Shown here piece by piece: positions 5,880 to 45,139 of a stretch of 47,092 nucleotides of DNA. Numbering within the stretch: position 1 is the first letter of the stretch; every line of letters starts with the position of its first letter. The translations under genes were made by a program, and so were the position numbers. The stretch is from Lentimicrobium sp. Its GTDB lineage: Bacteria > Bacteroidota > Bacteroidia > Bacteroidales > Lentimicrobiaceae. The notes beneath the pieces are model-generated. The model did no database searches. It saw nothing but the letters and a program-made list of their open reading frames with translations, and was not told the DNA's origin. The stretch is from assembly GCA_024709105.1 (NCBI GenBank), contig JANJXJ010000003.1:1-47092 (forward strand), given 5' to 3'.

Positions 5880-5923
5880 TTCCAAAGCATTTCGATCCAC
5901 TCCACAAAATCGGTTAATGAAAT

Positions 5924-6795: not shown

Positions 6796-6803
6796 TAATT
6801 TCG
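6796..6803 (+). promoter_or_regulatory. Candidate minus-7 box for the GT39 gene
   Basis: TAATTTCG resembles the Bacteroidetes minus-7 consensus TAnnTTTG with one change. It ends 10 bp before the ATG at 6813, which would give a very short leader. I see no clear minus-33 TTTG at the expected distance. Confidence 0.3.
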
Positions 6804-6812
6804 CGCTTGCGC

Positions 6813-8417
6813 ATGGATAAAACTTATTTTCAAACACACCGCATCTGGATTCTGATTGCGGTTTCTGCCGTAATACGCCTGCTGATAGCAGCTTTTACTG
6901 AATTGGGAAACGACGAAGTATACTACGTAAACTATGCTTTGTTCCCCGATTTAAGTCATTTCGATCACCCTCCTGTTACCGGATGGGTAATTCAGATTTT
7001 CACTTTAAACCTGTTATTTGACAGCGAGTTATTTATCAGACTGGGTGCGGTAATCCTGGGAAGCATCAACACCTATATTATTTATCTGATTGGTAAAACA
7101 ATAAAGGATGAAACCACCGGCTGGTACACCGCGTTGTTGTATACTGCTTCTTTTTACACTTTTGTAATATCAGGCATTTTTATGATGCCTGATGCACCAC
7201 AGACTTCTTTCTGGCTGCTCACTATGTTGCTGTTTGTAAAAGCTGTGAAAGCAGGGCCCGAAAACCCATCTGTAAATCGTTGGATACTGCTTGCCGGCAT
7301 AAGCGGCGGATTGGCAATGCTGTCGAAATATACCTCTGTATTCCTGTTTACCGGTGCTGGCTTGTATTTTTTACTCTTCGACCGGCGCTGGTTCACAAAA
7401 TGGCAGTTGTATGCTTCAATCATTATCGCTGCAATAATATTTTCTCCTGTAATACTCTGGAACATCAAATACAATTTTATTAGTTTCAGCTTTCACAGCA
7501 ACAGGGTCGAAGTGGTTGAAACAATGCTCAGGCCCGATCTGTTTGCAACAGAACTGGGCGGGCAGATTTTCTACAATAATCCATTTGTATGGGTACTGGT
7601 TATTGCCGGGTTGTTTGCATTTTTCAGAAAAAAAATGCCTGATAATCATAATGAAATCAAGATACTGATTACTACCGCATTGCCTGTTATACTTCTTTTC
7701 TTAGGTTTCTCATTGTTTCGCCGCACACTCCCCCACTGGACAGGACCAGCATACATGACACTGATGCCTTTGGCTGCTTTGTGGATCAGGGAATTGACCA
7801 AAGCAGGAACATCATCAAAAAAATTTCCTCCGCTTATTTCAGCAGCCGCCGGATTTCTTTTACTTATTCTAAGCATTGCACTACTGCAGATAGGATGGGG
7901 CCTGTTCCTGAACAAAGGAATTCATCCGCAGACAGGCAAAAGACTGGGAATTAAAGACATAACCCTCGATATGTATGGCTGGAAACAACTTAAAGAAGGG
8001 TTCGAGCCTGTTTATCAGAATGATACTGCATCAGGCCTGATGAAAAATGATGCCGTTATTATTCAGCAGCGCTGGTTTCCGGCTGCCAATATTGATTATT
8101 ATGTGGCCCGGCCATTGGGCATAAAACTTCTGACACTTGCCGATATTGAAAGAACCCATAAATACGCATGGATAACTCAGTACCGGGGAGGTTATAAGCC
8201 TATGCAGGATGCATACTATTTTTCTTCGAGCTACGATTTTTCAGACCCAAACTGGTATTATAAAGAATTGTTTATGATTATAGAAGGCCCTGACACCATT
8301 CCGGTATACCGCAACAATGTACTTGTTATGAATCATTATGTATGGAGAATGCGGGGACTGATGTTTCAGCCTTCTGACGATCTTACCGGCCGAAATGTAT
8401 TTAATGAAACTAAATAA
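6813..8417 (+). CDS. ArnT/PMT-like GT39-family membrane glycosyltransferase
   Basis: The frame is open from a TTG at 6807, but ATG 6813 is the natural start (534 aa). The N-terminus has a first membrane helix and then the periplasmic acidic motif G-N-D-E-V-Y-Y (Asp34, Glu35) and H-F-D-H-P-P-V. This is the pattern of PMT_2/ArnT-type enzymes that move sugars from polyprenyl-phosphate donors to lipid A or proteins. About ten further hydrophobic helices run to residue ~370, followed by a soluble C-terminal domain. Acceptor and sugar cannot be told from sequence. It stands alone and ends 6 bp from the convergent arsC-like gene. Confidence 0.82.
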   Translation: MDKTYFQTHRIWILIAVSAVIRLLIAAFTELGNDEVYYVNYALFPDLSHFDHPPVTGWVIQIFTLNLLFDSELFIRLGAVILGSINTYIIYLIGKTIKDETTGWYTALLYTASFYTFVISGIFMMPDAPQTSFWLLTMLLFVKAVKAGPENPSVNRWILLAGISGGLAMLSKYTSVFLFTGAGLYFLLFDRRWFTKWQLYASIIIAAIIFSPVILWNIKYNFISFSFHSNRVEVVETMLRPDLFATELGGQIFYNNPFVWVLVIAGLFAFFRKKMPDNHNEIKILITTALPVILLFLGFSLFRRTLPHWTGPAYMTLMPLAALWIRELTKAGTSSKKFPPLISAAAGFLLLILSIALLQIGWGLFLNKGIHPQTGKRLGIKDITLDMYGWKQLKEGFEPVYQNDTASGLMKNDAVIIQQRWFPAANIDYYVARPLGIKLLTLADIERTHKYAWITQYRGGYKPMQDAYYFSSSYDFSDPNWYYKELFMIIEGPDTIPVYRNNVLVMNHYVWRMRGLMFQPSDDLTGRNVFNETK

Positions 8418-16156: not shown

Positions 16157-19100
16157 GTGCAGCCTGGCACAATAAACAGTATTTTTACACATACCAAACA
16201 CTTAAGTTCCTTGGAGCGAATTGCAAAATACTTAATTAGAATCGTTGTTTTTCTGTCGGTAATTTCCATCACCTGGGCCATACCGGCGTCAAATGAAATA
16301 TGGCAGAGTCCGCAAACTTCTCCGGTTCCTGCTGCACCACCCGACACCACCAAACCCGGCGGCAATCTCCCCTATCCGCTTCCGCAGCCCGACCCGGGTC
16401 AACCACTGCAGCCTTCCGACAAGAACAAAATGTTCCTCGGAACTCCTTCAAATATTACCGAAGATTTTATCTATAACCCGGCAACCAATTCCTTTGACTA
16501 TGTGAGAAAAGCCGGTGAACTTCAACTTACTTCCCCTTCGAATCTGAACTTTGAAGAATATAAAGAGCTGGATCTGGATCGCTCTCTTAATAATTTCTGG
16601 CGCGAAAAAGCAGTAAGCAGCGGACAAACCGCTACCCGGTCGGGAATTATTCCACAAATTCATATTGGTGGCGAAGTATTCGACCGCATTTTTGGCGGAA
16701 ATACCATTGACATCCGCCCACAGGGAAGCGCTGAAGTAACCTTTGGAATTCTTTCAAACCGCCGCGACGACCCTGCCCTAGACATCAGACAAAGAAAAAC
16801 CACCAATTTCGATTTCCAGCAGCGCATCCAAATGAGCGTAATGGCCAAAATCGGAGATAAAATTGAATTCAACACCAATTATAATACCGAAGCAACCTTC
16901 GATTTTGAGAACAAACTCAAACTCAAGTATGAAGGTAAAGAAGATGAAATTATCAAACTCATTGAGGCCGGAGACGTTACATTCCCGCTGAACAGCACAC
17001 TTATTACCGGAAGCCAGAGCCTTTTCGGATTAAAAACCCAGATGCAGTTTGGGAAAGCCACAGTTACCGGAGTTTTTTCGCAACAGAAAAGCGAAACTCA
17101 AACCATAACTGTACAAGGTGGTGCCCAAACCAGCAAATTCAGTGTAAGGGCGCTTGATTATGAAGAAAACCGGCACTTTTTTCTGGCTCAATACTTTGTT
17201 GATAACTATGATCAGGCTCTAAGTCAGCTGCCCATTATCAACTCCAATATCAACATTACAAAAATTGAGGTCTGGGTAACCAACATTGGGCCTGCCGTTA
17301 CCGATAACCGAAATCTGGTTGCCCTTATGGATCTGGGAGAACGCAAACCCTACAACCCAACCATATCCCCAACCATTGGCGCCAGCGCTTTCCCCGATAA
17401 TGGATCGAACAATATGATTTCGAGGTTCGACACTACCCGAATCAGAAATATAAATCTTGTAACTGAATATCTAACCGGAGCGCCATTCGGATATGTGTCA
17501 GGTACCGACTTCGAAAAAGTAGAAAATGCCAGGCGACTGAATGCCAACGAATATACTTTTAACTCAAAGCTCGGTTTTATTTCGCTTAACAGTACACTGA
17601 ATCCCGATCAGGTGCTTGCTGTTGCATTCCAGTATACTGTGATAGGGCAGGACAGCATTTTTCAGGTTGGGGAGTTTTCTGACCAGGGAATTACGCCTCC
17701 CAACACCCTGATGGTAAAACTGCTGAAGAGCACTGCCCTTAACACCAGGATTCCCATGTGGAATCTGATGATGAAGAACGTTTACAACATCGGGGCTTTT
17801 CAGCTGAACCGCGAAGATTTTATCCTGAATATCCTTTATTCGGGCAACGAAAATACAGTACCTACCGGATACTTTACCGAAGGCCGCGAAGGCGTAAAAG
17901 GGGTTCCGCTTATCAGGTTGTTTAATTTCGACAATCTCGATCCTCAGCTCAACCCGCCGCACGACGGATTGTTTGACTTTATTGATAATGCCGCACGGCA
18001 GGGAGGTACTATTCAGTCATCGAACGGCAGGGTATTTTTTACTGTACGCGAACCCTTTGGTTCATACCTGCGCAACAAACTTGAGGATAAAGAACTGGCC
18101 GACAAGTATTGTTATGATTCGCTTTACACACTTACCAAAAGCGGGGCACAGCAGTACCCTGACAAAAACCGTTTTTTAATTGACGGGCAATACAAATCTA
18201 CTGCGGGATCAGAAATTTCGTTGAATGCGCTGAACGTTCCTCAGGGATCGGTTCGTGTAACAGCAGGAGGAATTCCGCTAACCGAGAATGTTGACTACAC
18301 CGTTGACTACACGCTTGGCCGTGTAAAAATCATTAACGAAGGTATACTCAATTCAGGAACTCCGGTTAACATTTCACTCGAAAACAATGCCACCTTTAAT
18401 CTGCAAACCCAAACCATGATGGGCTTGCACGTTGACTACCGGGTGAACAAAGACCTGATGATTGGTGCTACTGTTATCAACCTTCATGAAAGGCCGCTTA
18501 CACAAAAAACCAATTTTGGGCAGGAGCCGATTTCCAACACCATGTGGGGAATGGACTTCAACTACCAAACCGAGTCAATGATGCTTACCCGCTTGATTGA
18601 CAAACTTCCATTTTACAGTACCAAAACACCATCACGAATTCAGTTTAACGGAGAATTTGCACACTTTATTCCAGGTCATTCAAAAGCGGTTGGAAAGACC
18701 GGCACATCTTATATTGATGACTTCGAAGGTGCCAAGTCCTCGATTGACCTTAAAAATACCGGCACCTGGTTTCTGGCCAGCACACCGCAGGGCCAGATCA
18801 GCCGCGATATGTTCCCTGAAGCAGCGCCTGGCACAGGACTTTCCTATGGATTCAACAGGGCCAAACTGGCCTGGTACACCATTGACCCCCTGTTTTATGA
18901 CCGCAACAGCAACCTGAGGCCGAAAAATGTATCTAAAGACGAATTATCGCGCAACTCAGTGAGGCTGGTGAGAGAAAGCGAAGTATTCCCCAATGCTGAC
19001 CCGCCCAACGGGCAGCCAATGAATCTTCCGGTTTTAAATCTGGCATTCTTCCCCGAAGAGCGTGGCCCCTATAACTTTGATGTTTTGCCCGGCGGATTAT

Positions 19101-22100
19101 CTCAGGGTATCAGTGAAGACGGAAAACTCCTATCACCCCGGACACGCTGGGGCGGAATCATGCGTAAAATTGAATCAACCGATTTTGAAGCAGCCAATGT
19201 GGAATACATCGAATTCTGGCTGATGGACCCCTTCTCTGAAGTTGAGAATCACCGCGGAGGAGACCTGTACTTTAATCTGGGCGATGTATCGGAAGACGTG
19301 TTGCGTGACGGCAGAAAAGGATATGAGAATGGGCTGCCTACTTCAGCAGAAGTGAAAAATGTAGATACCACCATCTGGGGCCGGGTTCCAACACTTCAGG
19401 CGCTGGTATTTGCTTTCGACAACGATATTGCTGCCCGCCCGTTCCAGGATGTGGGATATGACGGACTCAGCGATGCCGATGAACGCACATTCTTTGATGA
19501 CAATTACCTGCAAGCCATTGCCAATCAGTATGGCACTGCTTCTGAGGCATATCTGCAGGCTTTTGAAGATCCTTCATCTGATAATTATCATTTTTTCAGA
19601 GGAAGTGACTACGATGAAGATCCTAAGTATGGCAGCGTAGTTGAACGCTACAAAAAATTCAACGGAGTAGAAGGCAACTCACCTGCTACAGAACAATCGA
19701 GCGAAGAGTTCCAGACTCAAGCCACCACTCTGCCCAACGTTGAAGACATTAACCGCGACAATACTCTGAATGAGCAGGAGAGATATTTCCAGTACAAGAT
19801 CAATCTGGCTCCTGAAAAAATGAACATCGGCGAAAACTACATTACCGACATATATACTGCCAACGATATTCCTCTCGAAAACGGAAAAAGAGGCAGTGTA
19901 AAATGGTATCAGTTCAAAATTCCGGTTCAGAGCCCTGATGTAGTTGTTGGTAACATTCAGGATTTTAAAAGCATTCGCTTTATGAGGATGTTCCTGAAAG
20001 ATTTTGAAGAAGAGATAATTCTCAGATTTGCCACCCTTGAGCTGGTGCGCGGTGAATGGAGAAAATATTACAGCAATCTGCTTGAGCCGGGCGAGTATAT
20101 TCCCGATCCCAATCAGAACCAAACCTCTTTTGATATTTCAACTGTAAGTATTGAAGAAAACGGAAGCCGTTCACCGGTGCCTTATGTACTTCCTCCTGAT
20201 ATTGAGCGCGAAATCAATGTTGGTACTACCAACTACCAGCGTTTGAATGAGCAGGCTATGGTACTCAAGGTTTGCAACCTGCTCGATGGTGATGCCCGCG
20301 GAACTTACAAAACCACCGACTTCGACTTCAGACAGTACAAAAGGCTGAAGATGTACATTCACGCCGAAAAGTCACTGGAACTGCAGGAGCTCGATAAGGG
20401 AGATGTTACAGTATTTATCAGAATTGGTTCTGACTTCACCCAGAACTACTATGAATATGAAGTTCCTGTGGAATTTACACCCTGGTTTACATCGGCAGCC
20501 AACGACCGGTTGATATGGCCGGATGCCAACCGAATGGATATTGAGCTCAGCAAGCTGGTAAATGCCAAACAGCAACGCAACGATGAAATGGGATCTCCAG
20601 GGTCAATGATTACCGTACTTACACCCTATGAAGTTTTTGATGGAGAAAACAAGATTACTGTGGTGGGTATGCCCAGCCTGAGCGATATAAAAGCGTTTAT
20701 GATTGGGGTGAGAAATCCTAAAAAACGGTTTATTCAGGACAATGATGACGGTGATCCCAAATGCGCCGAAATCTGGGTAAATGAACTCAGGCTTACCGAT
20801 TTTGACGAATCACACGGTTTTGCAGCAACTGCCCGCCTGGCGGCCAACCTGGCTGACCTTGGTAATGTAGTGGTTTCAGGAAGCTACTCCACTCCAGGCT
20901 TTGGGAGTATTGAAAAGAAAGTGGGAGAAAGGTCGCAGGAAACCACCACTCAGTTTGATGTTGCTACGAACATTCAGCTTGGAAAATTCTTCCCCGAAAA
21001 ATCCGGAATCAAAATTCCCATGCACATTGACTATTCTGAAATGCGCATGACACCCAAGTACGACCCTCTTGATCCTGATGTTCATTATAAGGAAGTTATC
21101 AGCGACCTGACGAAAACCGAAAGAGACTCTGTGCGAAACAAGGTACAGGATTTCACCCGCCGAACCAACATTAATTTTGTAAATGTTCGTAAAGACCGGG
21201 TAGGCACCGGAGGTAAAAACAGAATTTACAGCATTGAAAACTTTGATTTTACCTACGCATATTCCGAGATATACCATAAAAATGTGGATCTGGAATACGA
21301 CAGCCGCAAACAATACCGCGGAGGGATCGGATACAACTTTATATATAATCCCAAGCCCGTTAAACCGCTGCAGAATGTTAAGTTCCTGCAAAGCAAATCG
21401 CTGGCCATTGTAAAAGACTTCAATTTCTATTACATGCCCAAGATGTTCTCTTTCAGAACTGATATGAACCGGCAATACAACGAGCGTTTGCTGCGCAACA
21501 AAAGCGATGCTCTTATAATTCTGGAACCTACATATACAAAAAGCTGGGACTGGAATCGTTTGTTTGATCTCAAATACGACATAGCTCAATCGCTCAAATT
21601 AGAATACAATGCAAATGCAAATGCCTATGTAAAGGAGCCTCCCGGACGTATCAGCCGCAGCGATGATGATTATCAGGCTGTAAGAGACTCTATTTGGGAC
21701 GAAATTATGAACTTCGGAAGCATGAACAGGTTTACCCAAAACATGAACCTGAATTACATTGTACCTATCAATAAAATTCCACTCTTTAACTGGGTTAACC
21801 TTAACACCCGTTATTCAAGCACCTTCAGGTGGGAAGCATCTCCCAGATCTATTCAGGAGCGAATGGGTAATACCATCGAGAACAGCAACACCATCAACAT
21901 CAATGGTAATGCCAGGTTAACCAATTTATACAATAAGTGGGGATTCCTCAGGAAACTAACCCAGCCCGCCCGCGGACAAACACCACCAAGGCCCGGTCCT
22001 GGTGGACGAATGGCTCCTGAACAAAAAGAACAACCCCCGGCACCTGAAGAAGCCGACTCTGCAAACCTTGCCAAAAAGTCACCACAAATTGCCAAAATAC

Positions 22101-23461
22101 TAGGCATCGGAGTGGTAAAACTGATTATTGGTTTTAAAGATGTACAGATTAACTATACCGAGTCTAATGGCACATTGCTGCCAGGATTTCTGCCTCAGCC
22201 AGATATCCTTGGGAACAACCTCAGTGCAATGGCACCTGGTATGGGATTTGCTTTTGGAAGTCAAAGAGACCTGAGATACGAAGCTGCAGAGAAAGGATGG
22301 CTCACAGCCGACTCGCTGCTCAATACTGCGTATGTAACCCGGCTTACCAAAAATCTTACTGCCAGGGCAACCTATGAGCCTTTCCCTGAGTTCAGGATTG
22401 AATTTACTGCCGATAAAACCGAATCATTCGGGCATCAGGAGTACTTCAAGGCAGATAAAGATGGTAATTTCGGTATTTCATCTCCTCAGGACAGAGGGTC
22501 TTACAGTATTTCGTTCTTCACCCTTAAAACAGCTTTCAAAAAAGATGATGATGAAAACATCTCCCCGGTTTTTGAAGATTTTAAGGAATACCGTTCGGTT
22601 ATTGCGGCAAGGCTCGGAGCGCTCAACCCCAATTCTGTTGGAGTAGACAGCCTTGGTTATGCTCAGGGATATGGACCTGCCTCACAGGATGTGCTTATTC
22701 CTGCTTTTATTGCAGCCTATTCGGGCAAAGACCCGATTAAGGTAAGCCTTTCACCTTTCCCAAAAATCCCGATGCCCAACTGGCGATTCTCCTATTCAGG
22801 ACTTTCGAAAATTGAATTCTTTAAAAAATACCTGAAACAACTTACTATTTCTCATTCTTACAGGTCAACCTATTCGGTTGGAAATTACATCTCAAATGTT
22901 GATTTTCTGCAAAATATGGGGTTTCCTGCAGGGTTTGATGCAGCCGGCAACTTTATCACACAAAACCGGATTGAAATCATTACCATTACCGAGCAGTTCA
23001 GCCCGCTCATCAACTTTGATATGACCTGGAACAACAGCCTGCTCTCAAGAATAGAGATAAAAAAATCAAGAAGCCTTTCGCTTAGTTTTGTTAACAATCA
23101 GGTAACAGAGGTAACCGGAAACGAGTTGGTAATTGGTGTCGGATACCGGTTTAAAGATGTAAAACTAAATCTTTCAAGCGGAGGAAGACGTCAGCAACTG
23201 AAGAGTGACCTGAATGTTAAACTTGACCTTTCGGTGCGCGACAACAAGTCAATCTTGCGCAGGCTCGATGAGGAAATAAATCAGATTTCAACAGGAAACA
23301 GAATAGTTTCGATCAACTCCTCTGCCGATTACATGATTAATCAAAGGTTTAATCTGAGGTTGTTCTTCGATAAAACCATTACCAATCCCTTCATTTCGTC
23401 ACAATTCCCGAACTCAACTACCAATGCAGGAGTTAGCCTGAGGTTTACACTGGCTCAGTAA
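16157..23461 (+). CDS. sprA: Type IX secretion outer-membrane translocon SprA (Sov)
   Basis: At about 2434 aa this has the size of SprA, the very large outer-membrane barrel through which T9SS cargo leaves the cell and which is also needed for gliding in motile relatives. Recognised stretches include I-H-I-G-G-E-V-F-D-R-I-F-G-G-N-T-I-D-I near residue 170, T-S-Y-I-D-D-F-E-G-A-K-S-S-I-D-L near 855 and A-E-I-W-V-N-E-L-R-L-T-D-F near 1540. The C-terminus is rich in alternating strand patterns. A Pro-rich low-complexity insert lies near residues 1935-1975. The start is uncertain: the frame begins with GTG at 16157 and has no early ATG, but a hydrophobic signal segment lies at ~24-42. TTG at 16211 is an alternative. 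A T9SS cargo gene occurs at 30.3-31.7 kb. Confidence 0.96.
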   Translation: MQPGTINSIFTHTKHLSSLERIAKYLIRIVVFLSVISITWAIPASNEIWQSPQTSPVPAAPPDTTKPGGNLPYPLPQPDPGQPLQPSDKNKMFLGTPSNITEDFIYNPATNSFDYVRKAGELQLTSPSNLNFEEYKELDLDRSLNNFWREKAVSSGQTATRSGIIPQIHIGGEVFDRIFGGNTIDIRPQGSAEVTFGILSNRRDDPALDIRQRKTTNFDFQQRIQMSVMAKIGDKIEFNTNYNTEATFDFENKLKLKYEGKEDEIIKLIEAGDVTFPLNSTLITGSQSLFGLKTQMQFGKATVTGVFSQQKSETQTITVQGGAQTSKFSVRALDYEENRHFFLAQYFVDNYDQALSQLPIINSNINITKIEVWVTNIGPAVTDNRNLVALMDLGERKPYNPTISPTIGASAFPDNGSNNMISRFDTTRIRNINLVTEYLTGAPFGYVSGTDFEKVENARRLNANEYTFNSKLGFISLNSTLNPDQVLAVAFQYTVIGQDSIFQVGEFSDQGITPPNTLMVKLLKSTALNTRIPMWNLMMKNVYNIGAFQLNREDFILNILYSGNENTVPTGYFTEGREGVKGVPLIRLFNFDNLDPQLNPPHDGLFDFIDNAARQGGTIQSSNGRVFFTVREPFGSYLRNKLEDKELADKYCYDSLYTLTKSGAQQYPDKNRFLIDGQYKSTAGSEISLNALNVPQGSVRVTAGGIPLTENVDYTVDYTLGRVKIINEGILNSGTPVNISLENNATFNLQTQTMMGLHVDYRVNKDLMIGATVINLHERPLTQKTNFGQEPISNTMWGMDFNYQTESMMLTRLIDKLPFYSTKTPSRIQFNGEFAHFIPGHSKAVGKTGTSYIDDFEGAKSSIDLKNTGTWFLASTPQGQISRDMFPEAAPGTGLSYGFNRAKLAWYTIDPLFYDRNSNLRPKNVSKDELSRNSVRLVRESEVFPNADPPNGQPMNLPVLNLAFFPEERGPYNFDVLPGGLSQGISEDGKLLSPRTRWGGIMRKIESTDFEAANVEYIEFWLMDPFSEVENHRGGDLYFNLGDVSEDVLRDGRKGYENGLPTSAEVKNVDTTIWGRVPTLQALVFAFDNDIAARPFQDVGYDGLSDADERTFFDDNYLQAIANQYGTASEAYLQAFEDPSSDNYHFFRGSDYDEDPKYGSVVERYKKFNGVEGNSPATEQSSEEFQTQATTLPNVEDINRDNTLNEQERYFQYKINLAPEKMNIGENYITDIYTANDIPLENGKRGSVKWYQFKIPVQSPDVVVGNIQDFKSIRFMRMFLKDFEEEIILRFATLELVRGEWRKYYSNLLEPGEYIPDPNQNQTSFDISTVSIEENGSRSPVPYVLPPDIEREINVGTTNYQRLNEQAMVLKVCNLLDGDARGTYKTTDFDFRQYKRLKMYIHAEKSLELQELDKGDVTVFIRIGSDFTQNYYEYEVPVEFTPWFTSAANDRLIWPDANRMDIELSKLVNAKQQRNDEMGSPGSMITVLTPYEVFDGENKITVVGMPSLSDIKAFMIGVRNPKKRFIQDNDDGDPKCAEIWVNELRLTDFDESHGFAATARLAANLADLGNVVVSGSYSTPGFGSIEKKVGERSQETTTQFDVATNIQLGKFFPEKSGIKIPMHIDYSEMRMTPKYDPLDPDVHYKEVISDLTKTERDSVRNKVQDFTRRTNINFVNVRKDRVGTGGKNRIYSIENFDFTYAYSEIYHKNVDLEYDSRKQYRGGIGYNFIYNPKPVKPLQNVKFLQSKSLAIVKDFNFYYMPKMFSFRTDMNRQYNERLLRNKSDALIILEPTYTKSWDWNRLFDLKYDIAQSLKLEYNANANAYVKEPPGRISRSDDDYQAVRDSIWDEIMNFGSMNRFTQNMNLNYIVPINKIPLFNWVNLNTRYSSTFRWEASPRSIQERMGNTIENSNTININGNARLTNLYNKWGFLRKLTQPARGQTPPRPGPGGRMAPEQKEQPPAPEEADSANLAKKSPQIAKILGIGVVKLIIGFKDVQINYTESNGTLLPGFLPQPDILGNNLSAMAPGMGFAFGSQRDLRYEAAEKGWLTADSLLNTAYVTRLTKNLTARATYEPFPEFRIEFTADKTESFGHQEYFKADKDGNFGISSPQDRGSYSISFFTLKTAFKKDDDENISPVFEDFKEYRSVIAARLGALNPNSVGVDSLGYAQGYGPASQDVLIPAFIAAYSGKDPIKVSLSPFPKIPMPNWRFSYSGLSKIEFFKKYLKQLTISHSYRSTYSVGNYISNVDFLQNMGFPAGFDAAGNFITQNRIEIITITEQFSPLINFDMTWNNSLLSRIEIKKSRSLSLSFVNNQVTEVTGNELVIGVGYRFKDVKLNLSSGGRRQQLKSDLNVKLDLSVRDNKSILRRLDEEINQISTGNRIVSINSSADYMINQRFNLRLFFDKTITNPFISSQFPNSTTNAGVSLRFTLAQ

Positions 23462-36639: not shown

Positions 36640-36984
36640 GTGGAATCTCAAAGACAAATCATCTTTCACGGAAAGTATTTTACCAACTTTTATCTGGAGC
36701 AACCAGAAAAAGTTCAGGAGAAGATTGAATTTGTTTTCAAATTGATAAGGACTGTTCAGAAGGTTCCTAAAAAATACCTTAGCCACTTGACTGGAACAGA
36801 TGGACTTTATGAAATCCGTATAGAATTTGAAAGCAATATTTATCGGATTTTCTGCTGTTTTGATAAAGAGAAATTGGTTGTTCTATTCAACGGTTTTCAA
36901 AAGAAAACTCAGAAAACACCCAGGAAAGAAATTGATTTAGCATTGAGACTTAAAGTTGAATATTTTAACTCAAAAAAGAAATGA
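36640..36984 (+). CDS. higB: HigB/RelE-family toxin (type II toxin-antitoxin)
   Basis: A 114-aa basic protein of the phage-derived Gp49/HigB group: E-K-I-E-F-V-F-K-L-I-R-T-V-Q-K-V-P near residue 27, L-T-G-T-D-G-L-Y-E-I-R-I-E near 49, and I-Y-R-I-F-C-C-F-D near 67, followed by L-F-N-G-F-Q-K-K-T-Q-K-T-P. Characterised members are ribosome-dependent mRNA interferases. The only start near the right place is GTG 36640, and no early ATG exists. The antitoxin gene begins one base past its stop, in the toxin-first order typical of higBA. Confidence 0.87.
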   Translation: MESQRQIIFHGKYFTNFYLEQPEKVQEKIEFVFKLIRTVQKVPKKYLSHLTGTDGLYEIRIEFESNIYRIFCCFDKEKLVVLFNGFQKKTQKTPRKEIDLALRLKVEYFNSKKK

Positions 36985-36985
36985 C

Positions 36986-37291
36986 ATGGACAAAGAACTG
37001 ATTAAAGATGCTGGTAACTTTGATGAGTTATTAGACATTAAATATGGTAAAATCGGAACTGTGAAACGTGACAGTTTTGAGGAACGTGCTCAATATTTTG
37101 TGATTAGTGAAATGTTGAGAGAAGCCAGAAAGGAAGCAAAAATGACACAAGAACAACTTGCCCAAAAAGTAGGAACAAAAAAGAGTTATATTTCCCGGCT
37201 TGAAAATGGAAAGTGTGACATTCAACTTTCGACACTTTACAGGATATTTGAATTTGGACTTGGAAAAAGAATTAATCTTTTAATAGGATAA
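36986..37291 (+). CDS. higA: HigA-like antitoxin with XRE helix-turn-helix
   Basis: The ATG at 36986 gives 101 aa, whereas the longer frame from a TTG at 36956 would overlap the toxin gene. Residues ~53-76 form a Cro/CI-type helix-turn-helix (M-T-Q-E-Q-L-A-Q-K-V-G-T-K-K-S-Y-I-S-R-L-E-N-G-K). The N-terminal ~45 residues likely bind the toxin. It should neutralise HigB and repress the operon. A group II intron is inserted only 9 bp after its stop, so read-through into flanking DNA is interrupted. Confidence 0.9.
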   Translation: MDKELIKDAGNFDELLDIKYGKIGTVKRDSFEERAQYFVISEMLREARKEAKMTQEQLAQKVGTKKSYISRLENGKCDIQLSTLYRIFEFGLGKRINLLIG

Positions 37292-37346: not shown

Positions 37347-38663
37347 TCACACCACTGTACGTACGGGTCTCGTATACAGCGGTTCGTTAAGATGTGGGGC
37401 AATCTTCTCATAAAGTGAAAGCATAGCCACATACCCTCTTTTGCTTAATCGGTCTAAGGTAATAGTTGTAATCAGAATCGGACTTTGAGCAACTGCCCAA
37501 CCTCCCATTCTGGTTCTGCTCCATTGGTAAGCATGATCTGGGTCAATACCGAGACGGATCAGATTTTTCCTTTTTCGTTCGGGTTTCTTCCAGTGCTTCC
37601 AGAAACAATACCTCAGACGGTTACGCACCCACCCATCGAGTTCTTTGAGTTTGCCCTGTATACTTGCCATACGGAAGTACCCAAGCCATCCTCTCTGGAG
37701 TTCGTTGAGTTTTATAATGCGTTCGTCAAAGGTTGCCGGAGTCGTTTTACGGGTGATGATTTTGATCTTCTGCTTTAACGATTTCCATCCTTTCTCGCTC
37801 ACTACCAACTGGTATTTGCCTTTCTCACCCTTTACGTAAGTGGGTACGAATCCGTATCCAAGTAAAGTAAAGTTCACAGGTTTACGTATGCCACTTTTCT
37901 CCCGATTGATAGGTAGTTTCAGCTTGTTCTTTAGGAAAAGAAAAGCTTCGTTACCCGCTTTTCGGGCTGCATAATTACTTTTGGCATAAATGCTAAAGTC
38001 ATCGGCATAGCGCACATAGCGAAGCCCCTGTTTGTCCAGTTCCTTATCCAACTCATTCAGCATGATGTTTGAAAGTAACGGGCTTAATGGGCTTCCCTGC
38101 GGAACCCCTTTTCTGCGTTTGGTGAGTTTGCCGTTTATTTGAATCGGCGCTTTCAGCCATTTGCGGATAAGGCGTAATGTGATCGGACATTTTACCTTGC
38201 GGTACAGCAACTGCAAAAGAATACAATGATCCACTTCATCGAAGAAGTTCTTCAGATCTATGTCAACAATGTGCTGATAGCCTGAATTGATGTATTCCTG
38301 TGCCTTGAGTACTGCCTGCTGGGCGTTGCGGTTGGGACGGAAACCGAAGCTGTAGTCTTCAAATTCAACCTCGAATTTCATGGCTATTACCTGCCCGACT
38401 GCTTGTTGCAGAAGACGGTCGGTAACGGTTGGAATACCCAGTAAGCGGGTTTTTCCGTTGCTTTTTGGTATTTCTACCCCCAGAATTGGCTTGGGCAAGT
38501 ATTTACACTGTCGGATTTCGGCCTCAATGTGCTGTCTGTTAATATTCAGATGGGCATAGAGATCACTGGCCTTCATACCGTCAACGCCTGCAGAACCTTT
38601 GTTCGACAGAACTTTGCGATAGGCAAGCGTTACATTCCTCCGGTTTAATACCTGTTCAATCAT
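37347..38663 (-). CDS. ltrA: Group II intron reverse transcriptase/maturase
   Basis: The frame is open from a GTG at 38726, but ATG 38663 (M-I-E-Q-V-L-N-R-R-N) matches the usual start and gives 438 aa. The reverse transcriptase domain has G-S-A-G-V-D-G-M, the Y-S-F-G-F-R-P-N-R-N-A block, G-V-P-Q-G-S-P-L-S-P-L-L-S-N and the active-site Y-A-D-D (~219-222). A maturase (GIIM) domain follows: L-N-E-L-Q-R-G-W-L-G-Y-F, then W-V-R-N-R-L-R-Y-C-F-W-K-H-W. No HNH endonuclease is visible. The final ~12 codons and the stop lie within the intron's domain V, so protein and ribozyme sequence overlap. The gene looks intact. Confidence 0.93.
   Translation of the reverse strand: MIEQVLNRRNVTLAYRKVLSNKGSAGVDGMKASDLYAHLNINRQHIEAEIRQCKYLPKPILGVEIPKSNGKTRLLGIPTVTDRLLQQAVGQVIAMKFEVEFEDYSFGFRPNRNAQQAVLKAQEYINSGYQHIVDIDLKNFFDEVDHCILLQLLYRKVKCPITLRLIRKWLKAPIQINGKLTKRRKGVPQGSPLSPLLSNIMLNELDKELDKQGLRYVRYADDFSIYAKSNYAARKAGNEAFLFLKNKLKLPINREKSGIRKPVNFTLLGYGFVPTYVKGEKGKYQLVVSEKGWKSLKQKIKIITRKTTPATFDERIIKLNELQRGWLGYFRMASIQGKLKELDGWVRNRLRYCFWKHWKKPERKRKNLIRLGIDPDHAYQWSRTRMGGWAVAQSPILITTITLDRLSKRGYVAMLSLYEKIAPHLNEPLYTRPVRTVV
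37351..37385 (-). ncRNA. Group II intron domain V hairpin
   Basis: ACCGCTGTA pairs with TACAGTGGT (one G-U pair). Above this are a two-base bulge and a four-pair upper stem (TACG/CGTA), the layout of the catalytic domain V. It is at the 3' end of the intron and overlaps the maturase C-terminus. Confidence 0.8.
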
Positions 38664-39188
38664 TCTGTGTTTACTTGTTTTTACCCTGTTCCGCCTATAG
38701 CAGGGCTTCCGTACGAGACGGATCACTGCCTAATTTGAAACATCTTCACGTTCAGTCCTTCATTGCTTCTGTGAGACTTCCGATTATCTATACCGGCTCG
38801 TATCGGGCAACTACTATGACCTCTGCTGACTTCTCATTACGGTCAGTAAATGACCCATGAGACCTCCCCTGGTAAGAGCTGTTTCCTTCCTCCAATCGCT
38901 GCGGCATCTACTATCAAACGATATTTTATTCTTCGGACGTTACAATGATGTGCTTGCTTATCCTCGTTTAATAGCCTCATATACCGTTCCTGTTCGTCAG
39001 TACCGGATTTTGCAGTCTGGCTTCCTTCACTGCTGTCGTCACCGACAACCAGCTTGCCACTTGCTATTACTTCGGGTCGTTACTCCCGCGTATAGGGGAC
39101 TTGCACCCCTTGGAAAATTATTCACACTTGTCAGGTAACTCCAAAAAGAAAATTTGTATTTTTGATCTTTTTCCAGAGCGTACAACAA

Positions 39189-39384: not shown

Positions 39385-40587
39385 CTACACCCGTTCAATC
39401 GCCATAGCGATGCCTTGTCCTACTCCAATGCACATGGTGCACAGGGCTTTAGACAATTTGTCTTTTTGTAATTGCCTTACTGCAGTTGTAACGATTCTTG
39501 CACCGCTCATTCCGAGGGGATGCCCGAGGGCGATGGCTCCGCCTCTTGGATTAATGCGGGCATCGTCATCAGCCAGGCCTAATTCGCGGGTGCAAGCCAG
39601 CGACTGGGCAGCAAATGCCTCATTCAGTTCGATGATGTCAAAATCATTGAGAGTAAGTCCGGTCAAAGCCAGCAATTTGCGCGTTGCAGGAACGGGGCCA
39701 ATACCCATAATGCGCGGAGGAACTCCGGCACTTTGCATTCCAATTATTCTGGCCAAAGGGGTGAGGTTGTATTTTTTAACTGCTGCGGCTGAAGCTATGA
39801 TCAGAGCTGCGGCTCCATCGTTTACACCTGAGGCATTTCCGGCGGTAATTGTACCTCCCTGACGGGTGATGGCTTTCAGTGCAGCCAGTTTCTCCACCGG
39901 AGAAAGCCTTGGATGCTCATCGGTATCGAAGATAAAAGGTTCAGCTTTGGGGCGGGGTAAAGAAACCGGGATAATTTCATCAGCAAACAAACCGGCTTCA
40001 ATAGCTTTGCTGGCCTTCAGCTGACTGCGGTAAGCAAACAAATCCTGATCTTCGCGGCTGATATTCATCTCCTGCGCAAGATTCTCGGCAGTTTCTATCA
40101 TGCTGTCAACCCCGTAAAGTTCCTGCATGCGTTTGTTTACAAACCGCCAGCCGATGGTAGTATCGTATATTTCGGTTTGCCGGGCAAAGGCTTCGGTTGA
40201 TTTACCCATCACAAAAGGGGCACGTGTCATACTTTCAACACCACCTGCAAGAATCAATTCAGCTTCACCGGCTTTGATGGCACGGGCGGCAGTTCCTATG
40301 GCTTCCATACCCGAACCACACAACCTGTTAACAGTCATACCAGGCACCTGCAATGGCAAACCCGCAAGCAGGAGTGCCATACGTGCAACATTCCGGTTGT
40401 CCTCGCCTGCCTGATTGGCGCAACCCATAATCACGTCATCAATTTGTGCAGGGTCAATTCCACTGTTGCGTTCAAGAATTGCTTTCAAAGGAATGGCAGC
40501 CAGATCATCGGCACGCACAGCAGCAAGCGATCCACCATATCGGCCAACGGGTGTGCGGATGGCATCACAAATAAAAACCTCGTTCAT
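39385..40587 (-). CDS. Acetyl-CoA C-acyltransferase (thiolase, PcaF-like)
   Basis: A 400-aa thiolase. The nucleophile is Cys90 in N-R-L-C-G-S-G; the catalytic His356 ([11 protein letters not shown]) and Cys386 (C-I-G-V-G) are present. The start [21 protein letters not shown] resembles beta-ketoadipyl-CoA thiolases, favouring the degradative reaction (beta-ketoacyl-CoA + CoA to acetyl-CoA + shortened acyl-CoA). It is the last gene of a same-strand set that also supplies a CoA-transferase and an aminotransferase, so its substrate is inferred to be a beta-ketoacyl-CoA derived from an amino acid. Confidence 0.93.
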
Positions 40588-40663
40588 AAAAATTCCTGAT
40601 TTAAAAAGAAACAGGCTGTTGTATCACGCAGCCTGCTTCTGGCAAATAAAATAATGTAAATTG

Positions 40664-42007
40664 TTATGCCTGAAGGTGCGGCTTAATGTGCCTGAAACTT
40701 TTCAGCATGGCATCACTCAGCAGGTCAATTTCAGGTTGCCCGATTACGGTCGAAAGCACACATGAGCAGGAGTTTATCATAATTACTCCTTCTTCATACA
40801 TCTTTTCCAAAAACATATTCATGATCATTTTGGTGTGTGCATCTTCATAACTCTCGCGATAGTTTTTGGGTGCCACTTCTCGGAAATGAACTTTGAACAT
40901 ACTTCCCTTTCCGGTGATGCTTAAGGGAATACCGGCAATTTTCCCGGCTTCCTTAATCTGATTGATCGCAATTTGAGAGAAATTGTTCAGCTTAATCATG
41001 GCTTCGCGATCGAGCATCTCCATGGCAACCTTTCCGGCAGTCATTGAAATGGGATTGGCTGAAAATGTGCCTGAAAGCGGGAATCTGAAATCGCTTCCTC
41101 CCGGATCAAGAATGTTCATAATGTCGGCCCTGCCTGCAAAAGCTCCGATAGGGAAACCACCACCGATGATTTTTCCCATGGAAGTTAAATCAGGCCTTAC
41201 TGAATAAGCAGATTGAGCGCCTTCATAATCGGCTCTGAAGCAGATGACCTCGTCAAAACACAGCAGGGCTCCGTTTTCGCGGGTCCATTTGTACAGAGCT
41301 TCTACAAACTCAGGAGTAGCCTGAACCATGCCAATGCGATGCGGAACCGGATCAATCAGCACACAGGCAATTTCGCCTGCATGGCGGTTCAGGATGTTAA
41401 TGGTACGTTCAATGTCATTGTAATGATACACCACCACATTGTCGAGTACAGCCTGAGGTGTTCCCACTACATGCGCAACACTTCTGGGGTTGTCAATGTC
41501 GCCCCAGGTAGCCGGTGAAGAACTCTGGCTCACTTCAGCGGTATCAAAACTTCCGTGGTAACCACCTTCGGCTTTGGCAATTTTAGGTTTTCCGGTAAAT
41601 GCGCGGGCAGCTTTGATCATGGCCATTACAGCTTCGGTACCCGAATTCATAAAACGGATTTTATCAAATCCGGGGACGCGGTTACAAAGCAGGGTGGCAT
41701 GTTCAATTTCTATTTCGGTGCCTATGGTATAGGCTGTACCTTTCTGCATTTGTTTGTAAACCGCCTCAATAATCTGAGGATGAGCGTGTCCGTGTATCAG
41801 CGAAGCAATGTTGTTGGCATAGTCAACTTTCTTATTTCCGTTAATATCGGTTACATAACAGCCTTTCGCTTCCGACACGTAGAAGGGATGAGGCTTGCGG
41901 AATACCACATTACGGCTTATTCCGCCAGGGAGAACTTTACAAGCTTTTTCGTACAGTTCTTCTTCCTTTTTCAGCACCTGAATGGTTTCATTGTCGTGCA
42001 TTGACAT
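40664..42007 (-). CDS. Class III aminotransferase (GSA-aminomutase/beta-amino-acid transaminase-like)
   Basis: A 447-aa PLP enzyme of fold type I: G-G-I-S-R-N near 28, N-S-G-T-E-A at 121-126, E-G-G-Y-H-G near 148, D-E-V at 252-254 and the PLP lysine Lys279 in M-G-K-I-I-G-G-G-F-P-I-G. The closest pattern is the glutamate-1-semialdehyde aminomutase subgroup. That subgroup also contains known beta-phenylalanine/beta-amino-acid transaminases and fits a role distinct from haem synthesis. It sits 20 bp after the CoA-transferase B subunit and 76 bp before the thiolase gene. I infer that it turns a beta-amino acid into a beta-keto acid. Confidence 0.87.
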   Translation of the reverse strand: MSMHDNETIQVLKKEEELYEKACKVLPGGISRNVVFRKPHPFYVSEAKGCYVTDINGNKKVDYANNIASLIHGHAHPQIIEAVYKQMQKGTAYTIGTEIEIEHATLLCNRVPGFDKIRFMNSGTEAVMAMIKAARAFTGKPKIAKAEGGYHGSFDTAEVSQSSSPATWGDIDNPRSVAHVVGTPQAVLDNVVVYHYNDIERTINILNRHAGEIACVLIDPVPHRIGMVQATPEFVEALYKWTRENGALLCFDEVICFRADYEGAQSAYSVRPDLTSMGKIIGGGFPIGAFAGRADIMNILDPGGSDFRFPLSGTFSANPISMTAGKVAMEMLDREAMIKLNNFSQIAINQIKEAGKIAGIPLSITGKGSMFKVHFREVAPKNYRESYEDAHTKMIMNMFLEKMYEEGVIMINSCSCVLSTVIGQPEIDLLSDAMLKSFRHIKPHLQA

Positions 42008-42027
42008 GACTATCAGAGTTTAACAGT

Positions 42028-42681
42028 TTAATAAAGTTTCAATTCGGCTGCGGTACAGCTTTTAAGATATTCAAAATCCACACCCGGAGCCATTTCTCTC
42101 ACAAACAGCCCGTTTTCAGTTACATCAATAACTGCCAGATCAGTGTAAATGTGGTTTACCACACCTTTTCCGGTAAGCGGATAAGTACATTCCTTAACAA
42201 TTTTAGGTTCTCCGTTTTTGGTGGTGTGCTGGGTAAACACAATGATTGTTTTTACACCTTCCACCAGATCCATGGCACCGCCTACTGCAGGAATGGCGCC
42301 GGGTTCTCCGGTTGACCAGTTGGCCAGATCGCCGTTTTCAGAAATCTGGAATGCGCCGAGCACACAGATATCAATATGCCCTCCCCTCACCATGGCAAAA
42401 CTATCGGCATGGTGAAAAAAACAAGCTCCTTTAATGGCTGTAACCGGTTTTTTACCGGCATTTATCAGCTCGTCGTCTTCCAGTTCCTTTGCTGGTGATG
42501 GTCCAACACCCAAAAGTCCGTTTTCGGTATGGAAAATAACTTCCCGGCCCTCGGGGATGTAATTGGCAACCAGTTCGGGCAATCCGATGCCCAGATTCAC
42601 ATATGCTCCATCAGGGATATCGCAGGCAATTTTACCAGCCATTTCCTCTTTGTTCCAGCCTTTTACTTCATTTAAGCCCAT
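42028..42681 (-). CDS. scoB: 3-oxoacid CoA-transferase, subunit B
   Basis: A 217-aa subunit with the catalytic Glu53 in H-T-E-N-G-L-L-G-V-G, preceded by Y-V-N-L-G-I-G-L-P and followed by G-G-A-M-D-L-V-E-G-V-K. It pairs with subunit A to move CoA from an acyl-CoA (succinyl- or acetyl-CoA in relatives) to a 3-oxoacid. Its ATG overlaps the end of the subunit A gene by 10 bp, indicating coupled translation and fixed stoichiometry. Relatives are AtoA, ScoB and PcaJ; the exact acid cannot be told from sequence. Confidence 0.94.
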   Translation of the reverse strand: MGLNEVKGWNKEEMAGKIACDIPDGAYVNLGIGLPELVANYIPEGREVIFHTENGLLGVGPSPAKELEDDELINAGKKPVTAIKGACFFHHADSFAMVRGGHIDICVLGAFQISENGDLANWSTGEPGAIPAVGGAMDLVEGVKTIIVFTQHTTKNGEPKIVKECTYPLTGKGVVNHIYTDLAVIDVTENGLFVREMAPGVDFEYLKSCTAAELKLY

Positions 42682-43388
42682 GGATACCTCCTGTTCTCCC
42701 TGATCAGCTGATTTTCGCTGACCGGATTGGCGATTTCTACCACTTTTTTTACAAAAATACCCGGAGTAACTACTATTTCGGGATCTATTTCGCCGGTTTC
42801 AACCACTTGCGAAGCCTGTACAATGGCATGACTGGCAGCCATACACATTACAGGGCCAAAATTACGTGCAGTTTTGTTGAATAACAGGTTGCCATACCGA
42901 TCGGCTATCCGGCATTTTACCAAAGCAAAATCGGCTTTGATCCCAAACTCCATTACATAGGGTTTTCCGTCGAATAAACGCATTTCCTTGCCTTCGGCCA
43001 GGGGTGTATTTACCGATGTTGGTGTAAAGAATGCAGGAATGCCGGCCCCTCCGGCTCTGATGCGCTCGGCCAGTGTACCCTGGGGAACCAGCTCAAGGTC
43101 AATTTCTCCTTTGCGGTAAAGCTCAGGAAATACCACCGAATTGGCAGTACGCGGAAACGAGCAGATCATTTTTCGTACCTGTTTGTTTTCAATCAGGGCT
43201 GCCAGTCCAATGTGTCCGTTTCCTGTATTGTTGCTGATTACGGTGAGGTCTTTGGCTCCGTGGTCAATCAGGGCATGTATCAGTTCGATGGGGCTTCCTG
43301 CCTCACCAAAACCACTGATCATTATGGTGGCTCCGTCAAAAATACCAGAAACCGCCTCCGAAGCAGATTTAACAATTTTATTGATCAT
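42672..43388 (-). CDS. scoA: 3-oxoacid CoA-transferase, subunit A
   Basis: A 238-aa subunit with the CoA-binding pattern I-M-I-S-G-F-G-E-A-G-S-P near residue 22, T-V-I-S-N-N-T-G near 49, and I-A-D-R-Y-G-N-L-L-F-N-K-T-A-R-N-F-G-P-V-M near 160, a stretch typical of PcaI/ScoA/AtoD. It overlaps subunit B by 10 bp. The radical-SAM gene ends 170 bp upstream on the same strand; the gap holds no gene, and a separate promoter there cannot be excluded. Confidence 0.93.
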   Translation of the reverse strand: MINKIVKSASEAVSGIFDGATIMISGFGEAGSPIELIHALIDHGAKDLTVISNNTGNGHIGLAALIENKQVRKMICSFPRTANSVVFPELYRKGEIDLELVPQGTLAERIRAGGAGIPAFFTPTSVNTPLAEGKEMRLFDGKPYVMEFGIKADFALVKCRIADRYGNLLFNKTARNFGPVMCMAASHAIVQASQVVETGEIDPEIVVTPGIFVKKVVEIANPVSENQLIRENRRYPWA

Positions 43389-43558
43389 AACGCAATGATT
43401 TATTGCTTATTAATTTTCAGTAATCACTGAAGATTGCCGTTTAGCTTGCGAAAGAAAACGTCAGTTGCAGAGGTTATGACAAAACAGCAATCCGGAATCA
43501 CCGGAAAAACTGTTTAGAAATCAGAAGCAATGCTGCAACCAACGTTTCCCTGCAGACT

Positions 43559-45139
43559 CTATTTCTTGCGTGTTTTTACAATGTTGTGCTCCAGGTGATG
43601 CTCAATGGCATAGAGTTCATCTTCGTAGAAGTGTTTATCTGCAGCATAGGGTTGCAAATTGGCTATGGTGTTTTCTACTTCGTCATACTTCGCCAGATAC
43701 ACCTGATCCATCCACTCCATGTTGCGGGCTTCGTTGAATTTAAGTGCAAAAAGTTTTTCGCCGTTCAGTTCAAGTGTTCCCAGCATACTGATTTTACCGG
43801 CAGAGGAGGTCATAGTGATGTACCTTGACGGACGGTTGATGGATGAAAGTGAGCGGTAAACTTTGCTGAACACCTCATTGATTTTTGCAAGGGGCTGTGT
43901 AAAATAGTGATGCTCACCAGTAGGCCTTGCGCAGTACATTGAATGGAATCCAACACCCAGTGTAGCCAAAAGATTACCCAGGTCAATCCAGTTCTGAGCT
44001 GAACGGTCAACATCCACAACGCCATTATCGTCAACAAACAGGCTGATGTGATTCATGATCGGGCTCTGGCTTTTGACAGTTGCTCCGTGTGCCTTTAACC
44101 TGCGGATAGCGGCTATGGTACTGGGATTCATCAACTCGCGAGGAGTAGAGAAATGCGACATAAATACCAGCTGAATACCATTGTCGTACAAACGCCTAAT
44201 CAGGCTAAGCATTTTGTTGTATGAAGGCATGATTACCAGTTCAGGATTAAAAGTCAGCACCCTGGTGCCCAAGCGGATGGTTTTGATGTGACCCAGCGCC
44301 GGGTCTTCGATAATCGGGGTAATATATTCTTCAAAACGATCGGCGCTCAGATAACCCGCATCTCCGCCGGTGATGAGCACGTCACTCACTTCGGTGTGCT
44401 GCTTCAGATATTCGTGAATCTGATAAACGTCGCGCTGAATAAACATATCTTCATCACCACGCACCTGAGCATGACGGAAACAATAATTGCAGAATGCAAA
44501 GCAGTTCTGGGTCTGAATGTCGAAAATAAGCTGACACTGCGGATATTTATGCTGACTGCCTTCCACAATCTCGGCTTCACCCTCCGAATTGATAAAGGTG
44601 GGCTTGTTCAGCTGCTGCTTTCCGTCGTGCGGATTGGTTTCCTTGATGTAATCCTTTACTATCTGCTGCTTTTCTTCCTCTGAAGTTGCACTCAGGTAGG
44701 CTTTTGCAACATCGGGCCTGATCATTCCCGGTTGCGGGAAAACCAGCTGGAAAACAGAATCCTTTTCAAAATTTCTCCAGTTGATGGTATTAAGCACGTG
44801 TTTGGTGGCCATAAACCGGTAAACATGGATAAAGAGTTCACGCTCTTCAAGATGGCCGATGTGGATTCCGTTTTCTTCGAGAATGGCATTGATTTCTCTG
44901 AAACCCTTGATGCCTGAATAATGCTTTTTGTCGTTAAAATGAAACTCTTCTTTTTCTTTTAAGCCTGAGTGTCTGGTAAAAGCAGCATGAAGCCTGGCAA
45001 GTACACCGGCAGGCAATAAATTTTCGTCACGGATAATTGCTTTTGTTTCCTCAGAGTAGTGGAAACGGGTCATCAGTTCTTCTACTTCGCTTTGGCTGAA
45101 AAGTACTTTTTCAGGTGTGGCTGTCAGGTTGTTGTTCAT
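43559..45139 (-). CDS. Divergent KamA-family radical-SAM 2,3-aminomutase (lysine 2,3-aminomutase-like)
   Basis: A 526-aa protein, about 110 aa longer than classical lysine 2,3-aminomutase because of an N-terminal extension. It has the radical-SAM cysteines Cys213, Cys217 and Cys220 (C-F-A-F-C-N-Y-C), an Arg222 matching the carboxylate-binding Arg134 of the Clostridium subterminale enzyme, L-I-T-G-G-D-A near 255 (S-A-M site), and Lys449 in S-S-A-G-K-I matching the PLP lysine Lys337. My alignment from memory puts Ala404 and a Thr/Ile at ~441-442 where that enzyme has Asp293 and Asp330, which bind the lysine side-chain amine. The C-terminal C-N-C-D-V-C zinc motif is also missing. The substrate may not be lysine. 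Confidence 0.88.
   Translation of the reverse strand: MNNNLTATPEKVLFSQSEVEELMTRFHYSEETKAIIRDENLLPAGVLARLHAAFTRHSGLKEKEEFHFNDKKHYSGIKGFREINAILEENGIHIGHLEERELFIHVYRFMATKHVLNTINWRNFEKDSVFQLVFPQPGMIRPDVAKAYLSATSEEEKQQIVKDYIKETNPHDGKQQLNKPTFINSEGEAEIVEGSQHKYPQCQLIFDIQTQNCFAFCNYCFRHAQVRGDEDMFIQRDVYQIHEYLKQHTEVSDVLITGGDAGYLSADRFEEYITPIIEDPALGHIKTIRLGTRVLTFNPELVIMPSYNKMLSLIRRLYDNGIQLVFMSHFSTPRELMNPSTIAAIRRLKAHGATVKSQSPIMNHISLFVDDNGVVDVDRSAQNWIDLGNLLATLGVGFHSMYCARPTGEHHYFTQPLAKINEVFSKVYRSLSSINRPSRYITMTSSAGKISMLGTLELNGEKLFALKFNEARNMEWMDQVYLAKYDEVENTIANLQPYAADKHFYEDELYAIEHHLEHNIVKTRKK

Follow-up and report, generated by a model that had tools for sequence, protein, structure and literature searches.

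A five-gene bacterial operon predicted to degrade lysine-derived 2-aminoadipate through a new radical-SAM aminomutase and 3-oxoadipyl-CoA

The 47,092-nucleotide stretch of Lentimicrobium sp. DNA analysed here (contig JANJXJ010000003.1, positions 1 to 47,092; hereafter the window) carries five same-strand genes, kam, coaA, coaB, AT and thl, which probably form an operon for degrading L-2-aminoadipate, derived from lysine, via 3-aminoadipate and 3-oxoadipyl-coenzyme A (CoA) to acetyl-CoA and succinyl-CoA. We also consider it likely, with slightly more reserve, that the operon provides an oxygen-independent, carbon-conserving lysine route, which would join the saccharopine and β-ketoadipate pathways via a new L-2-aminoadipate 2,3-aminomutase and would have spread among eight bacterial phyla. 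The gene families, the gene order, the pocket substitutions in the aminomutase, the genomic link to lysine-to-2-aminoadipate enzymes and the β-ketoadipate-type regulator can be read directly from the sequences. From them we infer the substrate, each of the reactions and the direction in which they run.

In the proposed pathway, L-2-aminoadipate would be supplied from lysine via saccharopine, lysine 6-transaminase or piperidine-6-carboxylate (P6C) routes. First, the aminomutase encoded by kam would shift the amino group from C2 to C3, converting 2-aminoadipate to 3-aminoadipate. Second, the aminotransferase AT and the CoA-transferase CoaAB, working in either order and probably with succinyl-CoA as the CoA donor, would convert 3-aminoadipate to 3-oxoadipyl-CoA. 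Finally, the thiolase encoded by thl would cleave 3-oxoadipyl-CoA to acetyl-CoA and succinyl-CoA, regenerating the donor. The net result would be conversion of 2-aminoadipate to acetyl-CoA, succinate and glutamate without decarboxylation, oxygen, 2-oxoadipate dehydrogenase or glutaryl-CoA dehydrogenase. If 3-oxoadipyl-CoA is formed by way of a 2,3-aminomutase, the initial amino acid would have to be 2-aminoadipate, and the same substrate is suggested by the combination of an aminomutase pocket that lacks the lysine-binding aspartates, a PcaF-type thiolase, a PcaR/PcaU-type regulator and the saccharopine genes joined to the operon in Cloacimonadota. The initial annotation had proposed that the genes serve a single pathway in which an amino shift is followed by transamination, CoA transfer and thiolysis, and the wide clustering of these genes supports it; its analogy with the acetyl-β-lysine route conflicts with the four features just listed.

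All five open reading frames lie on the minus strand, as first annotated, and are transcribed in the order kam (43559..45139), coaA (42672..43388), coaB (42028..42681), AT (40664..42007) and thl (39385..40587), with a 10-bp overlap between coaA and coaB. The thl product scores 678.4 bits against the TIGR02430 pcaF model, above the equivalog cut-off of 597, and all five operon thiolases scanned, from the window and four relatives, exceed this value (662.0–695.0 in the relatives). Its top matches in the Protein Data Bank (PDB) are 8gqh (‘Thiolase’, 566.9 bits) followed by PcaF of Pseudomonas putida (6pca, 563.1 bits), and its predicted function is thiolysis of 3-oxoadipyl-CoA. The coaA and coaB genes encode subunits A and B of a 3-oxoacid CoA-transferase whose proposed substrate is 3-oxoadipate or 3-aminoadipate: CoaA belongs to TIGR02429 pcaI_scoA (355.3 bits versus a cut-off of 128.5), with the succinyl-CoA:3-ketoacid CoA transferase 3cdk_A as its best PDB match, and CoaB belongs to TIGR02428 pcaJ_scoB (303.5 bits versus 243.55), with 3rrl_B as its best match.

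The kam gene encodes a divergent, 526-residue radical S-adenosylmethionine (SAM), pyridoxal 5′-phosphate (PLP)-dependent aminomutase, which we propose to be an L-2-aminoadipate 2,3-aminomutase. It carries the features of the radical-SAM 2,3-aminomutase superfamily, namely a CxxxCxxC motif (C213/C217/C220), R222 and the PLP lysine K449, and matches one solved structure, 2a5h (E=2.2e-11). Its scores nonetheless fall under the cut-off of every KamA-type model matched (for example, 72.8 versus 199.2 for TIGR00238), placing it outside both the KamA/AblA family (TIGR03820; 68.1 bits, cut-off 525.4) and the glutamate 2,3-aminomutase family (TIGR04368; 60 bits, cut-off 650).

AT is a class III PLP aminotransferase (PF00202) and a candidate 3-aminoadipate or 3-aminoadipyl-CoA transaminase. 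The initial annotation had asked whether it might instead be a true glutamate-1-semialdehyde aminomutase serving haem synthesis. Its score against the hemL model TIGR00713 (361.6, under the cut-off of 527.3) led us to reject a HemL role, and no gene over this cut-off was found in the window’s genome (G000). A second AT homologue of HemL-like size (open frame of 429–448 aa) and 31–38% identity, recognised by its size and identity, occurs in 23 of 29 non-window genomes with an operon-type AT. One report describes a HemL-like enzyme, Kat (CLOAM0809), that functions in Cloacamonas lysine fermentation and acts on 3-aminobutyryl-CoA, accepting thioesters only (PMC3149608). Kat is a HemL-like class III enzyme that, as predicted for AT, acts together with a CoA-transferase and a thiolase in a route that includes an aminomutase, and it sets a precedent for transamination of a β-aminoacyl-CoA (PMC3149608). 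When we searched 117 Cloacimonadota genomes with the window’s AT at E<=1e-90, two matched, both of them kam carriers, and no Kat-like gene was retrieved, so Kat remains an analogy for AT. That report also mentions a Kat homologue of 60% identity in the deltaproteobacterium NaphS2, which is without lysine fermentation genes (PMC3149608); we speculate that it could be part of an operon of the kam-coaA-coaB-AT-thl type.

Relatives of kam were sought in one genome per species, and the best 80 of 86 loci, with 54–87% identity over the best segment, were kept. Gene order could be evaluated in 67 of these; the other 13 end too early and were dropped. The order kam-coaA-coaB-AT-thl on a single strand is found in 50 of the 67 evaluable loci, the first four genes without thl in seven, and kam alone in ten, all of them from Colwelliaceae (Colwellia or Litorilituus). 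Regions around the best aminotransferase match were fetched for eight of these ten Colwelliaceae genomes, and in all eight, whose likeness was judged by eye, coaA-coaB-AT-thl form an operon of their own, with an IclR-type gene in divergent orientation beside it. The IclR-type regulators exceed the cut-off of 284.75 for TIGR02431, ‘beta-ketoadipate pathway transcriptional regulators, PcaR/PcaU/PobR family’, in three of the three cases scanned (309.2, 306.5 and 319.5). Of the 32 kam genomes scanned, which include the window’s own, 30 encode an AT homologue with 50% identity or more; the exceptions are G306 and Colwellia G589.

The kam proteins form one clade (Shimodaira–Hasegawa-like approximate likelihood-ratio test, 99), apart from KamA-type proteins and from a group of 460-residue paralogues (kam460), in a quick tree that gave long-branch warnings and from which, as from the residue counts below, three short kam fragments were excluded. 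The clade has rows from Bacteroidota, Ignavibacteriota, Cloacimonadota, Edwardsiibacteriota, Fidelibacterota (Neomarinimicrobiota), Pseudomonadota, Thermodesulfobacteriota and Myxococcota, and these phyla are partly interleaved, which suggests horizontal spread. Given this range and the shared order and strand, the clustering is more than chance, and the possibility raised initially that the five genes might not cluster elsewhere can be set aside. Among 296 genomes drawn from the window’s phylum, a kam of the window’s form was found only in the window’s genome and G070, so this form is rare in the phylum. Other regulatory genes border kam in some lineages. A 184-residue helix-turn-helix/cupin-like regulator, labelled by eye and without an NCBIfam match, immediately precedes kam in 18 of the 80 loci (Bacteroidota and Neomarinimicrobiota; for example, L043:7398-7952), and 16 gammaproteobacterial loci have a LysR-type gene transcribed divergently from kam.

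In Cloacimonadota, the operon is joined to genes for the conversion of lysine toward 2-aminoadipate. Locus L048 has, on one strand, a saccharopine dehydrogenase gene (SDH, 5312-6631), a lysine-ketoglutarate reductase gene (LKR, 6644-7933) after 12 bp and, after a further 13 bp, kam (starting at 7947), followed by coaA-coaB-AT-thl. SDH and LKR were identified by Pfam and best PDB matches (human aminoadipic semialdehyde synthase, 265 bits; saccharopine reductase, 314 bits), and L047 has a similar arrangement with one extra gene inserted. The window’s genome also has the saccharopine pathway enzymes LKR, SDH and P6C dehydrogenase: LKR and SDH are adjacent at G000:C62, and the P6C dehydrogenase gene lies at G000:C6 (NF050084, 789.2 versus a cut-off of 730), in each case on a contig other than that of the operon. 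Among 20 carrier LKR regions examined, SDH adjoins LKR in 13, and P6C dehydrogenase adjoins LKR or LKR-SDH in four (L152, L157, L158 and L165).

We searched more widely for lysine genes in 52 genome handles, namely G000, G070 and those of 50 of the 80 loci. Matches in G070 and G301 fall at identical positions, and the two were treated as a single genome, leaving 51 genomes, 36 non-gammaproteobacterial and 15 gammaproteobacterial. LKR, at 183 bits or more, is present in 29 of the 36 non-gammaproteobacterial carriers. Lysine 6-transaminase exceeds its cut-off in three (G320, G342 and G345), all without LKR, and in G342 it adjoins a P6C dehydrogenase homologue. Such homologues, of at least 61% identity, occur in 30 of the 36, the dedicated model having been applied to the window genome’s copy only. 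Within Bacteroidota, to which carriers were assigned by record title, LKR is found in 23 of 25 carriers versus 74 of 294 non-carriers (at least 159 bits in one piece, with two more in pieces; Fisher p about 3e-11), a comparison that is inflated by shared ancestry and whose reference set is the GTDB phylum, a wider group.

The aminomutase pocket supplies a separate line of evidence on the substrate. We aligned a profile of 41 kam proteins with one of six KamA-type proteins using hhalign (probability 99.4); for the latter, ten canonical-KamA stretches were fetched, of which seven had an open reading frame passing the filter and six were used. The alignment pairs D293, D330 and the PLP lysine K337 of 2a5h with R405, T442 and K449 of the window’s protein, and a pairwise structure-match alignment pairs R134 of 2a5h, the α-carboxylate arginine, with R222. 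None of R222, R405 and K449 varies over 78 kam sequences, and only Thr (38) and Ser (40) occur at position 442. We take Asp293 and Asp330 of lysine 2,3-aminomutase to be the residues that hold the side-chain amine of lysine. Replacement of one of them by an invariant arginine points to a substrate whose side chain carries a carboxylate, and the kam pocket as a whole suits an acidic side chain rather than a basic one.

These residues bear directly on a reading in which lysine itself is the substrate, passing through β-lysine, β-lysyl-CoA and 3-oxo-6-aminohexanoyl-CoA to acetyl-CoA and 4-aminobutyryl-CoA. Such a route would use the same reaction types in the same order, would start from the best-known KamA substrate and would account for those gammaproteobacterial carriers that have no detected source of 2-aminoadipate. 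It would, however, have to operate with both lysine-binding aspartates replaced, with a thiolase above the pcaF cut-off and with a PcaR/PcaU-like regulator, and it would leave the joining of saccharopine genes to kam hard to explain. On the strength of the pocket, the thiolase family and the regulator, we regard β-lysine chemistry as unlikely.

Glutamate is a further candidate, which would proceed via 3-aminoglutarate and 3-oxoglutaryl-CoA to acetyl-CoA and malonyl-CoA. Glutamate 2,3-aminomutase presumably has Lys and Asn at the positions of the two lysine-enzyme aspartates, and the change in the kam pocket is, we assume, of this kind. Moreover, the 28 sequences of the kam460 family retain the PLP lysine, and an arginine equivalent to R405 is invariant in 28 of 28. 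Because R405 is common to kam and kam460, it does not favour 2-aminoadipate over glutamate; this is the first of several observations that weigh against the proposed substrate. The 3-oxoadipyl-CoA-type thiolase, the PcaR/PcaU-type regulator and the link of the operon with lysine-to-2-aminoadipate genes all speak against glutamate, which we consider an improbable substrate. The kam460 paralogues, with unrelated neighbour genes in both genomes examined (L215 and L216), are possibly themselves glutamate-type 2,3-aminomutases. The window’s genome encodes a second kam paralogue, a member of this family with 445 aa and 34% identity, at G000:C183:18016-19224 (L215:6963-8300).

The remaining observations against 2-aminoadipate concern the distribution of its presumed sources. 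LKR is common in relatives that lack kam, as the Bacteroidota non-carriers illustrate. Neither LKR nor lysine 6-transaminase was found in four of the 36 non-gammaproteobacterial carriers (G303, G305, G324 and G339), and no P6C dehydrogenase homologue was found at E<=1e-60 in six (G302, G303, G305, G307, G308 and G328), which comprise both joined-gene Cloacimonadota genomes and four others; G303 and G305 thus lack all three lysine markers. The joined-gene Cloacimonadota genomes are metagenome-assembled, and another aldehyde dehydrogenase may replace P6C dehydrogenase in them. Two Marinifilum carriers (G329 and G332) encode KamD (PF09043). KamD has no match in G000 and is absent from 50 of the 52 handles, G000 included, so the initial statement that the classical lysine fermentation genes are absent stands as far as KamD is concerned; the search did not extend to kamE, kdd, kce or kal.

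In the 15 gammaproteobacterial carriers, neither LKR (at 183 bits or more) nor lysine 6-transaminase was found. P6C dehydrogenase homologues are present in three (G318, G333 and G334; 54–61%), and a fungal-type, lysine-forming saccharopine dehydrogenase adjoins SDH in another three (G312, G319 and G330), identified by Pfam and PDB matches in G319 and by likeness in G312 and G330, for G312 also with a dedicated query. No 2-aminoadipate source was detected in nine of the 15, the lysine-forming enzyme having been queried directly only in Shewanella (five of the 15). Across 129 Shewanella genomes, kam is present in 17 and the lysine-forming enzyme in nine, with three shared (Fisher p = 0.097, not significant), one of which (G461) rests on a weak 36% match in a 777-aa frame. 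A phosphotransferase-aminotransferase fusion lies near saccharopine genes in Shewanella (L201:4937-7294; PF01636 and PF00202) and Colwellia (L200:1-2244; by likeness). It looks like a hydroxylysine kinase joined to a phospho-lyase, an activity that would also supply aminoadipate semialdehyde.

The gammaproteobacterial carriers without a detected source, most of which keep the gene order, could be taken as a sign that the operon acts on another amino acid, such as a hydroxylated 2-aminoadipate or lineage-specific substrates, in which case the thiolase would act on a close analogue of 3-oxoadipyl-CoA. Against this, gammaproteobacterial kam proteins are 57–61% identical to the window’s (10 rows) and have the same pocket residues, and we give this reading little chance of being correct. 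The least probable alternative is reverse operation, from acetyl-CoA and succinyl-CoA via 3-oxoadipyl-CoA and 3-aminoadipate to 2-aminoadipate: the steps are reversible in principle and saccharopine enzymes work towards lysine in fungi, but thiolase condensation is unfavourable and most non-gammaproteobacterial carriers have a homologue of the oxidative P6C dehydrogenase. Furthermore, PMC7337054 describes PcaF as a thiolase of the degradative type that has a long covering loop.

Degradation of 2-aminoadipate by the operon, if confirmed, would have several implications. First, lysine would gain a direct, oxygen-free entry to succinyl-CoA and acetyl-CoA, and radical-SAM aminomutases would gain one more substrate. 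Second, the presence of a PcaF thiolase beside amino-acid genes in Bacteroidales, Ignavibacteria and Cloacimonadota would be explained, and the annotation of genes that models now label HemL, PcaF or KamA family would be corrected. Finally, the pathway would supply 3-aminoadipate and 3-oxoadipate, which are of interest in the production of adipate-type chemicals. The kinds of enzyme involved are known; what appears to be new is the way they are combined, together with the predicted 2-aminoadipate 2,3-aminomutase. Among the matches listed from the open-licence literature, we found no such pathway from lysine or 2-aminoadipate to 3-oxoadipyl-CoA, and names for 3-aminoadipate occurred in that literature only in a meteorite study and in a reference title within a review.

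Elsewhere in the window, a group II intron (37347-39048, minus strand) lies just downstream of the operon and comprises a reverse transcriptase/maturase open reading frame (37347-38726, minus strand; TIGR04416, over cut-off) and a catalytic intron region, D1-D4 (38877-39048, minus strand; Rfam RF02001). Positions 36640-37291 hold a two-gene pair, Gp49-like (PF05973) plus helix-turn-helix protein, that resembles a HigB-HigA toxin-antitoxin pair. A 2434-residue homologue of SprA (PF14349), which we take to be a component of the type 9 secretion system, is encoded at 16157-23461.

Parts of the predicted pathway have counterparts in several known systems. The kam protein shares with KamA/AblA (2a5h) the radical-SAM motif, the α-carboxylate arginine and the PLP lysine, but differs from it in model scores, in the replaced side-chain aspartates and in its separate clade. 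With glutamate 2,3-aminomutase (TIGR04368), kam presumably shares a positive residue at a position occupied by Asp in the lysine enzyme. To our knowledge, known routes onward from 2-aminoadipate run via 2-oxoadipate (for example, to glutaryl-CoA), not via 3-aminoadipate, and lose CO2. One such continuation, via 2-oxoadipate to 2-hydroxyglutarate, is outlined in PMC7286885, and the products of lysine fermentation are given as acetate and butyrate in PMC3149608. The saccharopine pathway (LKR/SDH plus aminoadipate semialdehyde dehydrogenase) would lie upstream of the operon, encoded on other contigs in the window’s genome and joined to the operon in L048. Downstream, the operon resembles the lower part of the β-ketoadipate pathway (PcaIJ, PcaF and PcaR) in its CoA-transferase family, in a thiolase over the equivalog cut-off and in the PcaR/PcaU-type regulator of the Colwelliaceae scanned. 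In contrast to that pathway, which is fed from protocatechuate or catechol, the operon would probably be fed from an amino acid, 2-aminoadipate, by way of an aminomutase and an aminotransferase.

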